A program made the position numbers and the translations under genes. The notes beneath the pieces are model-generated. The model was not told where the DNA came from. It did no database searches and was given only the letters and a program-made list of their open reading frames with translations. A stretch of 46,239 bases of DNA from IMG/VR virus record IMGVR_UViG_3300050821_003692, positions 1-46,239 of that record; one strand, given 5' to 3'. Below are positions 2,917 to 43,346 of this stretch, one piece after another (the first letter of the stretch is position 1; the number at the start of each line of letters is the position of its first letter). The DNA comes from a virus.

Positions 2917-3135
2917 TCACGTTGGGGTTTCTATAGGGAGGCTTTTACTCTCAGCTCGACGTACCAAGGTCATATGCACTTCCCAATCGTCTCCTTCCTT
3001 GAAGATGTCCGATCTCGTGTTGAGCAGAATTTCAACCGGCTGCGAGAAATCGTCTTTGAAGAAATCGTGCGTCATGTGAATGCGGCGGATGCCGTTGTTC
3101 GAGGTCACGTTGCGGACGGTGAATATCTCACGCAT
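2917..3135 (-). CDS. hypothetical protein, 72 aa
   Basis: The start is taken at the ATG at 3135 (MREIFTVRNV), which overlaps the end of the upstream coiled-coil gene by eight bases; longer upstream starts would run deep into that gene. The protein is soluble-looking and beta-rich (IFTVRNVTSNNGIRRIHMT... DWEVHMTLVRR) with acidic loops. No membrane span or motif is visible. It is coupled to the neighbouring lysis-end genes. Function is not recognised. Confidence 0.6.
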   Translation of the reverse strand: MREIFTVRNVTSNNGIRRIHMTHDFFKDDFSQPVEILLNTRSDIFKEGDDWEVHMTLVRRAESKSLPIETPT

Positions 3136-3631
3136 GGCGCAAGGCGAATTCGATGACAGCCACCAGTGCGCCGCCAGCAACCGCAGCAGCAAAAACCCAT
3201 CTCACCAAATCCGCTTGTCCGCCCCCTCTGTCTTGGGCGCCTCGCAGCGCAATTTCTATGGTGGACAATCTGGTTTCTAATCCCTTGACTTGCAGGTCGA
3301 CCGTGCTCTGGCGGGCAAATTCGTTGCGCCAATCGGCCGCCATGCTGCGCAATTCGTTCAGCCCCTCAAACCTTTTCTCGGTCGCCGCCTCTGCCTTGAC
3401 GACGGCTTTCTCGGCCGCGTCCATGGCGACCTTCACGCCTTCCTTCTGGGCGTTGATGAGCAGTCCGACTTTTTCGTCGAGGCTTCTAATGAGCGAGAGG
3501 AGGAGCGGCTGATTGACGCTCTGTGTCGCACTAAGCGCCTCAGTTAGAGCCGCCATTGCGCTGACTACTTCATCACTCTCCCGATCGGTCCCAGCCATCG
3601 GGTCATCCACTTGCACGGGGACGCGCGCCAC
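3128..3631 (-). CDS. coiled-coil protein with C-terminal membrane anchor, 167 aa
   Basis: Residues 25-130 are a long heptad-rich helix (LIRSLDEKVGLLINAQKEG, then AAEKAVVKAEAATEKRFEGL and ETRLSTIEIAL), and residues 145-163 (WVFAAAVAGGALVAVIEFAL) are a C-terminal membrane span. It is thus tail-anchored with a large coiled coil on one side of the membrane. The GTG at 3631 gives the longest form; the ATG at 3598 (MAGTDRES) is an equally likely start. The layout and the place near holin and lysozyme suggest a lysis or superinfection role; unproven. Confidence 0.7.
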   Translation of the reverse strand: MARVPVQVDDPMAGTDRESDEVVSAMAALTEALSATQSVNQPLLLSLIRSLDEKVGLLINAQKEGVKVAMDAAEKAVVKAEAATEKRFEGLNELRSMAADWRNEFARQSTVDLQVKGLETRLSTIEIALRGAQDRGGGQADLVRWVFAAAVAGGALVAVIEFALRHA

Positions 3632-39299: not shown

Positions 39300-39551
39300 A
39301 TGCGCAAAGCCTTGGTTTTGTGCTTTTTTCTGGCTGGCTGCGCGTCGGCGGCCGATATCGCGGCCTATGACGACGCAAAATGCCGGTCCTACGGGGCCAA
39401 GCCCGGCGATCCGGCCTATGTCACCTGCCGCTCGCAGCTCGACGCCGCGCGCACTCAGGCTGCGGCTACAATCGCCGCCGCACCGCTCGATACCCCGCCA
39501 ATCCAAGCCACGCGGACGCCCAATTTGGACCCGCGACAGCCCGGATTTTGA
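39300..39551 (+). CDS. small lipoprotein, 83 aa
   Basis: Signal peptide with a lipobox: MRKALVLCFFLAGCAS, lipid-modified Cys at 14. The mature part has the pattern ADIAAYDDAKCRSYGAKPGD-PAYVTCRSQL, common in small rhizobial lipoproteins (DDxxCRxxGAxPGxxAYxxCR). GGGGAAAACC precedes the ATG. On a prophage this could alter the envelope or block superinfection; function is not known. Confidence 0.75.
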   Translation: MRKALVLCFFLAGCASAADIAAYDDAKCRSYGAKPGDPAYVTCRSQLDAARTQAAATIAAAPLDTPPIQATRTPNLDPRQPGF

Positions 39552-39720: not shown

Positions 39721-39951
39721 TCAAGCGACCTCTACTGGCGCTGGCGGATACAAATCAGGACGCAGCTCAAAGCGCGGTACGCCCGAAATTCTCTCGACTG
39801 CGAGTACGCGCAGCGGCGGGACCTCATCCCACTGCGAAATCGCCTGCATGGTGATGCCCAGAGGCTCGGCCAAGCCGGCCAAGCCACCGACAGCTTTGAT
39901 GGCACGCTCCAAAGCTTCCTTGGCGTCTGTCATGGCGCGTAGGTCAAGCAT
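39721..39951 (-). CDS. Cro/YdaS-like repressor, 76 aa
   Basis: ATG 39951 (MLDLRAMTDAKEAL). The pattern AIKAVGGLAGLAEPLGITMQ-AISQWDEVPPLRVLAVERIS-GVPRFELRPDLYP is the YdaS/Cro-type HTH: AGGxxxLAxxLGIxxQAISQW, VPxxRxxxVExxxGVPxxxLRPDLYP. It is divergent to the CI-like gene and separated by 64 bases filled with operator half-sites, the layout of a lysis-lysogeny switch. The TTG at 39963 gives no benefit. It probably opposes the repressor. Confidence 0.85.
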   Translation of the reverse strand: MLDLRAMTDAKEALERAIKAVGGLAGLAEPLGITMQAISQWDEVPPLRVLAVERISGVPRFELRPDLYPPAPVEVA

Positions 39952-39952
39952 G

Positions 39953-39982
39953 GCTTTACCCAAAAGTCAAGCAATGCTTCAT
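39953..39982. promoter_or_regulatory. three-half-site operator block, Cro/CI divergent region
   Basis: Half-sites GCTTTAC (39953-39959), GTCAAGC (39966-39972) and GCTTCAT (39976-39982) are separated by 6 and 3 bases. The same design recurs at 40347-40376. In addition CTTTACCCA (39954-39962) is mirrored by TGGGTAAAG (39987-39995). This is the natural place for repressor binding between the two regulator genes. Confidence 0.7.
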
Positions 39983-40009
39983 TGCGTGGGTAAAGTGCAG
40001 CTTTATAAT
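39982..40009 (+). promoter_or_regulatory. promoter of CI-like repressor
   Basis: TTGCGT (39982-39987) and a perfect TATAAT (40004-40009) are 16 bases apart. The -10 box ends six bases before ATG 40016, so the mRNA should start at or next to the ATG: a leaderless transcript like lambda PRM. The -35 overlaps the operator block. Confidence 0.65.
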
Positions 40010-40015
40010 ATTGAT

Positions 40016-40345
40016 ATGACTTTGGGAAAACGCATAAAGGCCGCACGTATACGCCTTGTTCCAAAGCTTACGCAAAAGGCGGTAGGTGAGGCATTCGGCA
40101 TTACTGCCAAAGCCGTGTCAGGCTGGGAACTCGGCGGTGCCCCAGAGCGCGAGAGAATGCCTAAATTAGCGCGCTTATTGCAGGTTCCGCTTGCTTGGCT
40201 TTGCGAAGGAAACGGAGAGCCGCCGCCCCCAGATCATTTCGATGTGCTGATCGAAGATTTATTGCCCCACGAGGTAGCTCACGTTAGAGCCTTGGCCGAG
40301 TCCTTTCGCCAACAGCGGCGGCAACCGGGGCGCCGAGTAAAGTAA
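40016..40345 (+). CDS. CI-like repressor, 109 aa
   Basis: XRE-type HTH at about residues 5-60: LGKRIKAARIRLVPKLTQKAV-like start, then AVGEAFGITAKAVSGWELGG and LARLLQVPLAWLCEG, the usual recognition and linker motifs of phage repressors. The C-terminal 45 residues form a charged helix (LLPHEVAHVRALAESFRQQR) without a LexA-type protease domain, so induction would not be by RecA-driven self-cleavage. It has no ribosome site and seems leaderless. The frame is open upstream to 39650, but the promoter lies just before this ATG. Confidence 0.85.
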   Translation: MTLGKRIKAARIRLVPKLTQKAVGEAFGITAKAVSGWELGGAPERERMPKLARLLQVPLAWLCEGNGEPPPPDHFDVLIEDLLPHEVAHVRALAESFRQQRRQPGRRVK

Positions 40346-40346
40346 C

Positions 40347-40376
40347 GCTTGACACTCAAGTAAAGCTATGCTTGAC
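40347..40376. promoter_or_regulatory. three-half-site operator block before early operon
   Basis: GCTTGAC (40347-40353), GTAAAGC (40360-40366), GCTTGAC (40370-40376), with spacers of 6 and 3 bases, the same architecture as at 39953-39982. It lies just after the repressor gene and before the HNH-ERF plus-strand genes, so it should control early transcription. TTGACA at 40349-40354 is a possible -35 box. Confidence 0.7.
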
Positions 40377-40400
40377 TGCCCTCCTATTCGCAGGAGGGCA
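40377..40400 (+). promoter_or_regulatory. hairpin that covers the ribosome site of the HNH gene
   Basis: TGCCCTCCT (40377-40385) and AGGAGGGCA (40392-40400) form a perfect 9-bp stem around a six-base loop. The AGGAGGG arm is the Shine-Dalgarno sequence of ATG 40403, so this fold would block translation unless opened. Confidence 0.6.
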
Positions 40401-40402
40401 CT

Positions 40403-40735
40403 ATGCCGGTCACTGTAATTTGCAAAGGGTGCGGGAACGCCTTTCAGGCTGGGAATAAACGCACGAAATATTGCTCTGGGCGTTGCTATAGGGCCAAAGA
40501 GCAAGATCACGGCCAACTCGTTCGGCAATCATGGAGCGCGGAGCGCAAGCGCGCTGGCGCCGCCGTACAGACAGCCATTTATCAAGGTCGGCTTGTTCGC
40601 CAGCCGTGCGAGATCTGCGGAAAGCAGCGCGTCGACGCCCACCACGACGACTATTCGCGGCCGCTCGATGTTCGCTGGCTCTGCCGCAGCCACCACAAGC
40701 AGCTTCACGTTGCTCTCGCGAGGCTCGCGTCATGA
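40403..40735 (+). CDS. HNH-type zinc protein, 110 aa
   Basis: Two zinc sites: an N-terminal CKGC...KYCSGRCY knuckle (C7, C10, C24, C28) and a C-terminal HNH-like set, PCEICG, VDAHHDDYSRPLDVRWLCRS-HHKQLH (C69, C72, then DAHHDDY and C94-x2-HH). This C-terminal pattern is common in small phage HNH proteins, close to homing-type endonucleases and packaging-linked HNH enzymes; a nuclease role is likely but unproved. Its ribosome site is covered by the hairpin at 40377-40400. It heads the early operon. Confidence 0.8.
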   Translation: MPVTVICKGCGNAFQAGNKRTKYCSGRCYRAKEQDHGQLVRQSWSAERKRAGAAVQTAIYQGRLVRQPCEICGKQRVDAHHDDYSRPLDVRWLCRSHHKQLHVALARLAS

Positions 40736-41562: not shown

Positions 41563-41672
41563 GCGGATGGTGGCTGCTGCTGATCGTCCCGGCCGTGTTC
41601 TCAGCCGGATATTGGCTCGCCACAGTTCAGGGTGCGCGCAATGAATTTCGGGCATGGGAGGGCTTGGAATGA
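41559..41672 (+). CDS. tiny membrane peptide, 37 aa
   Basis: ATG 41559 overlaps the previous stop, and its TGA overlaps the ATG of the ERF gene. MSGWWLLLIVPAVFSAGYWL-ATVQGARNEFRAWEGLE has a span at residues 3-22 and a charged end. It and the 30-aa peptide form a pair of membrane peptides inside the recombination operon. Role unknown. Confidence 0.6.
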   Translation: MSGWWLLLIVPAVFSAGYWLATVQGARNEFRAWEGLE

Positions 41673-42475
41673 ACGTCGCAACAAAGCCGGCCGAGCAGAC
41701 CGAAGTGCTGGTTGAGGAAGCGCCAGCGCCGCAACTGCCCACCATCCGGCAGGAGCGCAAGCCACGCGCAGTCGCGGCCCCGAAGCCCGCGCAATATCCG
41801 GGCAGCATCGCCAAGGCCATCCTCGCGGTCGCCAGCCAAATCGGCGCGATCCAAAAGGAAGGCTGGAACGACTTCCAGAAATACAAATACACACGCTGGG
41901 AGGATATCGCGGAGAAGCTTTCGCCGCTCCTGATCGCGCATAATCTGATCATCAATCAATCGGAGCTCAGCCGCAGCCTTCTCGAGGAGAACGAAAAAGG
42001 CTCCGTCCTCGCCATCGTCTATCATTTCACGATTATCAACAGCGAAGGCGAACAGTGGCCGGCGGTCGAGTGGACCGGAATCGCTCGGCTGCGCGACGGC
42101 AAGGGCGTGACCGACGACAAGGCCGCCCTCAAGGCGCAGACGCAGGCCGAGAAATCATTCTGCGTGAAGCAGTTCAAGATCATCACCGACGACGTGGAAA
42201 AAGAGGACCGCCACGCCAGTCTGCCGAAGAAAGACGCGCGGGATGTTTACAGCAAAATGCAGGCCGAGATCGATCAGCAGACATCGCTCGTGGAACTCGG
42301 CGTGTGGGGCAATCAAAATTCCGACCGCATCAAGGCGCTGCCGCCGGATTGGCGGAACATTCTTCGCGAACGGTACGCTGAGAAGAAAGCGGACCTGGAA
42401 AATCAGGTGGCCACCGATCCAAACAAAGAAGTTTGGGACGAGGAAACCGGCGAAGTCAAAGCGACTAATGATTGA
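41669..42475 (+). CDS. ERF-type single-strand annealing recombinase, 268 aa
   Basis: Anneals complementary strands in phage recombination. The ERF pattern is SIAKAILAVASQIGAIQKEG-WNDFQKYKYTRWEDIAEKLS, followed by LIINQSEL, a YHFTIINSEG strand, and LRDGKGVTDDKAALKAQTQA-EKSFCVKQFKI. The N-terminal 40 residues are Pro/Glu-rich and disordered; the C-terminal end is acidic. ATG 41669 overlaps the previous stop. With RusA on the other strand it gives a phage recombination set. Confidence 0.88.
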   Translation: MNVATKPAEQTEVLVEEAPAPQLPTIRQERKPRAVAAPKPAQYPGSIAKAILAVASQIGAIQKEGWNDFQKYKYTRWEDIAEKLSPLLIAHNLIINQSELSRSLLEENEKGSVLAIVYHFTIINSEGEQWPAVEWTGIARLRDGKGVTDDKAALKAQTQAEKSFCVKQFKIITDDVEKEDRHASLPKKDARDVYSKMQAEIDQQTSLVELGVWGNQNSDRIKALPPDWRNILRERYAEKKADLENQVATDPNKEVWDEETGEVKATND

Positions 42476-43023: not shown

Positions 43024-43040
43024 CTGGGGATTTGCGAACA

Positions 43041-43346
43041 ATGCCTAGCAAGGACGTCGTTTTTAGGACGCTCATAAAAGATACGAGAGAATATCAGAGC
43101 ATGAGCTTGTCCGAAGCCGCCGAATTGATCGGCTGTACCAAGAGCCATCTTTGGGATTTGGAGCGAGGCGTTGCGGCAAATCCCACAATCAAGACTCTAG
43201 CCGGTATCGCGTGCGCCTACGATTTGGATTTAGGTGATGTGGCCACCGCAGCGGCGACATCATGCCCAGGGACCGATTATCGTTCTGCCGTCGGCGACCT
43301 CGTAAGAGCAAAACGTAATCTAAAAATTGTTGCGGCAACTGACTAG
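43041..43346 (+). CDS. XRE-family HTH regulator, 101 aa
   Basis: LIKDTREYQSMSLSEAAELI-GCTKSHLWDLERGVAANPTI-KTLAGIACAYDLDLGDVATA is a clear XRE/Cro HTH: xLxxAAxxxGxSxSxLxxLExGxxxNPTxxTLxxIAxAxxxxL. A short C-terminal segment with Arg/Lys (DLVRAKRNLKIVAATD). ATG 43041. It may control the early or integration genes. The TTG at 43032 is a weaker start. Confidence 0.85.
   Translation: MPSKDVVFRTLIKDTREYQSMSLSEAAELIGCTKSHLWDLERGVAANPTIKTLAGIACAYDLDLGDVATAAATSCPGTDYRSAVGDLVRAKRNLKIVAATD

Follow-up and report, generated by a model that had tools for sequence, protein, structure and literature searches.

The locus considered here lies in a stretch of viral DNA of 46,239 nucleotides (referred to below as the window), and consists of a gene for a small CI-like repressor with short inverted repeats on either side of it. 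The questions it raises are how these repeats should be divided into individual binding sites, which proteins would use them, and to what type of genetic switch, if any, the whole arrangement belongs.

The operator unit

It was originally predicted that two 30-base blocks, at 39953-39982 and 40347-40376, represent one duplicated operator, each block being a compact asymmetric trio (half-site, 6 bp, inverted half-site, 3 bp, half-site) that would offer two overlapping dimer sites. Both blocks are present letter for letter, and the repeat does stand far above chance, the exact pattern GCTTGAC-N6-GTAAAGC-NAT-GCTTGAC occurring twice in the window and not once in 100 shuffles. What did not survive is the pairing: the best partner of 40347-40376 is not 39953-39982 but the reverse complement of 39943-39972, with which it shares all 21 half-site bases, so that the blocks are mutually inverted. 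The outer half-sites on both blocks had moreover been missed, and the unit had been cut wrongly.

The repeat unit is in fact a 17-bp pseudo-palindrome, GTMAAGC-N3-GCTTKAC, present in five copies, which are the top five 17-mers of the whole window. Three of these make up the right-hand array, namely the putative operators OR1 (GTCAAGCATGGCTTTAC, 39943..39959), OR2 (GTCAAGCAATGCTTCAT, 39966..39982) and OR3 (GTAAAGTGCAGCTTTAT, 39990..40006), while the left-hand array comprises OL1 (GTAAAGTAACGCTTGAC, 40337..40353), which overlaps the last codons and the stop of cI, and OL2 (GTAAAGCTATGCTTGAC, 40360..40376), all of them given for the plus strand. In this order 14, 12, 12, 13 and 14 of the unit's 14 positions are matched, no other 17-mer of the window exceeding 11, and the chance expectation for a score of at least 12 is about 0.4 per 46 kb of random sequence; all five fall within one 434-bp region. 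The gaps between neighbouring sites are 6 and 7 bp at OR and 6 bp at OL, corresponding to start-to-start distances of 23, 24 and 23 bp. Each 30-base block is thus made up of one full 17-bp site plus half of the neighbouring one, and the array is fully accounted for by non-overlapping sites, three at OR and two at OL, no half-site being left without a partner.

The trio can indeed be read in the letters of both blocks, but that it forms the unit actually recognised is, in our view, very unlikely, as it leaves the outer half-sites at 39943-39949, 39990-40006 and 40337-40343 unexplained, and complete relatives (described below) carry ten half-sites in five 7-3-7 units. In addition, OR2 and OR3 are in every case separated by a 7-bp linker, a length seen also in OL of the related locus L012 and OR of L021, whereas the 3-bp spacer never changes. 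It is this constancy of the spacer, set against a linker of either 6 or 7 bp, that points to the 7-3-7 element as the functional unit. A 20-bp unit, GCTTGAC-N6-GTAAAGC, was rejected on the same grounds, in that outer half-sites are left over and the linkers vary while the 3-bp spacer is fixed.

Conservation among related phages

A search based on the CI protein led to viral contigs whose CI is 50-55% identical to that of the window, and in all of these except the distant L007 there are three sites upstream of the gene and two downstream. When 2.9 million viral contigs were scanned using the operator DNA only, 13 matched, although the scan pattern was taken from the window itself and such match counts are therefore biased towards it; 12 of the 13 have the array, whether intact or modified, the remaining one (L015) being an isolated chance match. 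The exact 23/24 + 23 bp spacing is found in the window and 11 loci (L008, L009, L010, L013, L014, L016, L017, L020, L030, L136 and L137), among them a prophage of Bradyrhizobium and two other genomes, and the sequence between the sites drifts. Since several of our locus numbers refer to the same contig (L003/L014/L022, L004/L008/L023, L005/L017/L025, L006/L020/L026 and L013/L024), and since L017 and L020 are close relatives, these amount to about ten independent cases.

Comparison of the relatives showed that the half-sites do not vary freely: in the OR alignment their mean information content is 1.76 bits, while the linkers have 0.96, the spacers 0.85 and the cro-side flank 0.57. All five sites are conserved, and each of OR1, OR2, OR3, OL1 and OL2 keeps its own sequence variant across the relatives; thus OR2 ends in GCTTCAT in most of them, while in the short-CI set OR3 has GCTTTAT and OL1 has GCTTGAC. 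The likeness to OR and OL of lambda that was drawn in the original prediction is strongly supported by the fact that the relatives keep both arrays.

Some departures from the standard layout were also seen. In L021 (2427-2890) the OR1-OR2 spacing is 24 bp, and a small deletion has left OL with a single complete site. In L016 (265-465), L019 (4717-5013) and L011 (2490-3416) small genes, some of them membrane-like, have been added between cI and OL, at the position of rexAB in lambda; it is possible that these are superinfection-exclusion genes.

Among 84,980 bacterial genomes the exact operator pattern found no match, so that the short-CI array looks rare among sequenced isolates. A protein-profile scan of bacterial genomes did lead to the Bradyrhizobium prophage (L030), most of the other 79 genome matches being discarded as generic XRE proteins, largely from Firmicutes, with no array. 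Using a relaxed two-operator pattern, 12 of 392 genomes of the same family matched, including L030's own; of the others, five were examined (G278, G176, G351, G011 and G284), and true arrays are present in G278 and G176, while the two-site matches in G351, G011 and G284, which do not adjoin cro/cI, were taken as chance. The DNA of the L013 immunity region had no match among 50,697 cultured phages.

The proteins, the promoters and the predicted switch

The cI-like gene (40016..40345, plus strand) encodes 109 residues comprising a single helix-turn-helix (HTH) domain and a C-terminal helix. Pfam gives HTH matches only (HTH_3, 1.7e-8) and none to S24, and the family profile has its best PDB match in P22 c2 (1adr, E 2.9e-12, profile positions 3-67), so that homology to the HTH domain of P22 c2 is evident at the level of sequence. 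In an AlphaFold model (mean pLDDT 87.6, with a range of 62.7 to 87.6 over five models) the five HTH helices are joined by a further C-terminal helix at 84-102, and the top fold match of the model is again P22 c2, with a weak Foldseek E-value of 7.5e-3.

The cro-like gene (39721..39933, minus strand) encodes 70 residues, with a possible in-frame upstream ATG at 39951; its product matches YdaS_toxin (8e-14) and P22_Cro (7e-10) in Pfam, and its nearest PDB match is the Cro protein 3bd1 (2e-5). The label that Pfam attaches to this protein is "Bacterial toxin YdaS", but as it has been argued that YdaS is a Cro analogue and no member of a toxin-antitoxin pair (PMC8630535), an automatic toxin annotation of 39721-39933 would mislead. 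Just past the cro side, at 39300-39551, a small ORF on the plus strand carries what looks like a lipoprotein signal (MRKALVLCFFLAGC).

Beyond OL lies what had been described as an early HNH-ERF operon. The ERF recombinase gene (41654-42475, plus strand) holds good by Pfam (ERF, 1.3e-16), whereas Pfam does not confirm the HNH label: the first gene of the predicted OL/PL-controlled operon (40403..40735, plus strand) is an ORF encoding 110 residues that are Cys/His-rich, with a sub-threshold zinc-finger match only. Downstream of the ERF gene, at 43032-43346, there is a second small XRE/HTH_3 regulator of 104 residues, for which the candidate roles are antirepressor, CII-like or other.

Three promoters can be read, as predictions, from the sequence around the operators. 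Predicted PR (39942..39970, minus strand) has TTGACT-N17-TTGACC and predicted PL (40349..40377, plus strand) has TTGACA-N17-TTGACT, each with TG before a weak -10; the TTGAC-N17-TTGA spacing is common to both and to the relatives. The half-sites would here double as promoter elements, CTTGAC of OR2 and of OL1 furnishing the -35 of PR and PL respectively: the cro-side half of OR2 is the predicted PR -35 (TTGACT, minus strand 39970-39965), and the predicted PL -35 (TTGACA, 40349-40354) comes from an OL1 half-site. Predicted PRM (39982..40009, plus strand) has TTGCGT-N16-TATAAT, and OR3 overlaps its -10, the GCTTTAT half of OR3 running into it. A strict sigma-70 scan of the region found no promoter; although the -35 boxes of PR and PL are good, by the standards of E. 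coli both their -10 boxes (TTGACC, TTGACT) and the PRM -35 are weak, which accounts for this result. The TTGC of PRM is conserved in the relatives, as is the distance from OR3 to the cI ATG, which is 9 nt in every complete locus, while for the cro ATG the corresponding distance to OR1 is 9 nt where the CI is short and 7-8 nt where it is of S24 type. There is no obvious Shine-Dalgarno sequence before either cI or cro, and as TATAAT at 40004-40009 would put the start at 40016, the first base of the cI start codon, the cI message is predicted to be leaderless.

We consider it highly probable that we are dealing with a temperate phage's immunity region, of lambda/P22 build, in which the 109-residue CI and the YdaS-type Cro compete for the five 17-bp sites, three of them (OR1-OR3) separating the divergent genes and the other two (OL1-OL2) following cI. 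In the lysogenic state, PR would be covered by CI dimers at OR1 and OR2, and PL by those at OL1 and OL2, so that cro and the ERF operon are turned off. Relative to the predicted cI start the centre of OR2 falls at -42, and a CI dimer there would be placed like lambda CI when it activates PRM, while OR3, centred at -18 over the PRM -10, could serve both for autorepression by CI and for the shutting off of cI by Cro. The geometry of lambda PRM is that of OR2 at -42 and OR3 at -18. However, inspection of the CI family showed no conservation of the acidic residues that make up the activating patch in lambda-type repressors, and activation of PRM is thus suggested by geometry only. Given that CI has no S24 domain, cleavage in the SOS response would not be expected, and induction would probably proceed via an antirepressor or some other route. 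The specificities of CI and Cro are taken together here, and some of the sites might be used by one of the two only.

In two relatives cI has been lost but the operators are kept. In L018 (406-573) most of cI is missing, with CAG common to both junction ends, and L012 (5154-5277) has the complete set of five sites, with an OL spacing of 24 bp, but no cI; both are metagenomic contigs, and they are possibly natural cI-minus phages or possibly the result of assembly error. As the operators persist, some CI-independent function may remain; both contigs also encode the Cro-like protein. One might go further and suppose that the arrays are operators for the Cro/YdaS protein only, with the small HTH protein acting elsewhere or as a different regulator, but there is very little likelihood of this, as in complete loci the arrays bracket the P22 c2-like gene, the start codon of which stands exactly 9 nt outside OR3, and OL1 and OL2 are found beyond cI even where genes have been inserted (L011, L016, L019). 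That the repeats are iterons or some other non-regulatory element (replication origin, partition), as repeated 17-bp units at regular spacing might suggest, is extremely improbable, since the dyads lie over the predicted promoters of the divergent cro/cI pair and the early operon, each is conserved by position, and the adjoining genes encode two HTH regulators and no recognised replication initiator.

Known switches, and short and two-domain repressors on one array

The competition between CI and Cro proposed here can be set beside several known systems. As in lambdoid phages, there are three 17-bp sites between divergent cro and cI HTH genes, two further sites (40337-40376) past cI and before the early operon that are conserved in relatives, and spacings of 23, 24 and 23 bp, found in the window and the 11 loci listed above. 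The 23/24-bp spacing and the placing of OR2 at -42 resemble lambda, the half-site core TNAAG...CTTNA resembles the P22 operator, and P22 c2 and 3bd1 are the nearest solved structures to the window's CI and Cro. Unlike lambda and P22, however, the window has a CI without the C-terminal S24 domain (which provides for cooperativity and RecA-stimulated cleavage), an OL only about 330 bp from OR, two OL sites, and an operator centre that is CN3G rather than N4. In phage 933W the sites are likewise split three at OR and two at OL, and the repressor is a full-length cI, while the operator sequences of Rhizobium phage 16-3 probably differ from those of the window. Phage 933W, like the window, has five operator sites (PMC3317979) and an odd-length symmetric operator, but its sites are of 15 bp and its repressor has been reported to be non-cooperative (PMC3317979). 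The C repressor system of phage 16-3 is also that of an alphaproteobacterial phage, but has two operators on each side (oL1, oL2, oR1, oR2) rather than 3+2 (PMC12429752).

With the short-repressor systems DicA/DicC and PaaR2/YdaS the window shares a short c2-like repressor with no cleavable domain and a YdaS/P22-Cro-type partner on the opposite strand. In the Qin prophage of E. coli, the short single-domain c2-like repressor DicA, which has no cleavage site, is paired with a divergent Cro-like gene (DicC), operators resembling lambda PR and PL flank the repressor gene, and repression is relieved by the antirepressor Rem (PMC10448788); in the window, by contrast, no gene is recognised as an antirepressor. 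The Rac dicA gene is a tblastn match to the window's CI family. DicA is, however, a gammaproteobacterial protein of 135 residues, and for its operator regions three sites have been described, not 3+2 at 23/24 bp (PMC10448788). CP-933P of E. coli O157:H7 has in PaaR2 a leaderless CI analogue, as is predicted for cI here, with YdaS as Cro and operators also at the upstream PL, but these operators are four 18-bp GTTTAGTAA repeats and three overlapping sites, and PaaR2 has no sequence similarity to CI and stands in an operon with a toxin-antitoxin pair (PMC8630535).

The repeats are therefore real, but the predicted switch is of known type, and its array is common to many related uncultured phages. 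The closest precedents are the short non-cleavable repressors (DicA/DicC, PaaR2/YdaS) and 933W; this comparison covers open papers, and an earlier description of the family is possible, although in open full texts nothing specific was found on operators of Bradyrhizobium CI proteins.

Of most interest are perhaps the two relatives that keep operators without cI, and the use of one array by both short and S24-type CIs. In the Bradyrhizobium sp. C9 prophage (L030) the CI (2998-3630) has HTH and Peptidase_S24 domains by Pfam on the same 3+2 array; its catalytic serine motif reads QGDPMD and its lysine position VAYRIW, so that with Ser replaced by Pro and Lys by Arg it should not self-cleave, and on inspection it looks catalytically dead. 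The long CIs of L136 and L137, in which S24 was read from motifs, have a GDSM/GESM serine and a KR motif. These two prophages (L136:1014-2895 and L137:1067-3870) combine an active-looking S24-type CI with a YdaS-type Cro and the same array in a longer immunity region of 1.6-2.5 kb. Whether the repressor has one domain or two does not, on this evidence, alter the array. We would suggest, tentatively, that in these alphaproteobacterial phages one 3+2 array (23/24/23 bp) is served interchangeably by S24 CIs and by CIs of 106-109 residues with no cooperativity or cleavage domain.

For a group of soil phages with few characterised members, the locus provides a clean and comparatively well-supported lysis-lysogeny switch, for which operators, spacing and promoter elements can be predicted down to single bases, and with its 434-bp layout and 109-residue repressor it would be a bistable module small enough to be put to the test on a plasmid. 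The sharing of one array by short and S24-type CIs asks what purpose a lambda-like spacing serves where there is no cooperativity domain. If the suggestion of interchangeable use is correct, selection would be keeping the lambda operator geometry even after loss of the very CI domain thought to explain it, and the spacing would then have to serve promoter placement and Cro, or else the short CI would have evolved another cooperative interface.
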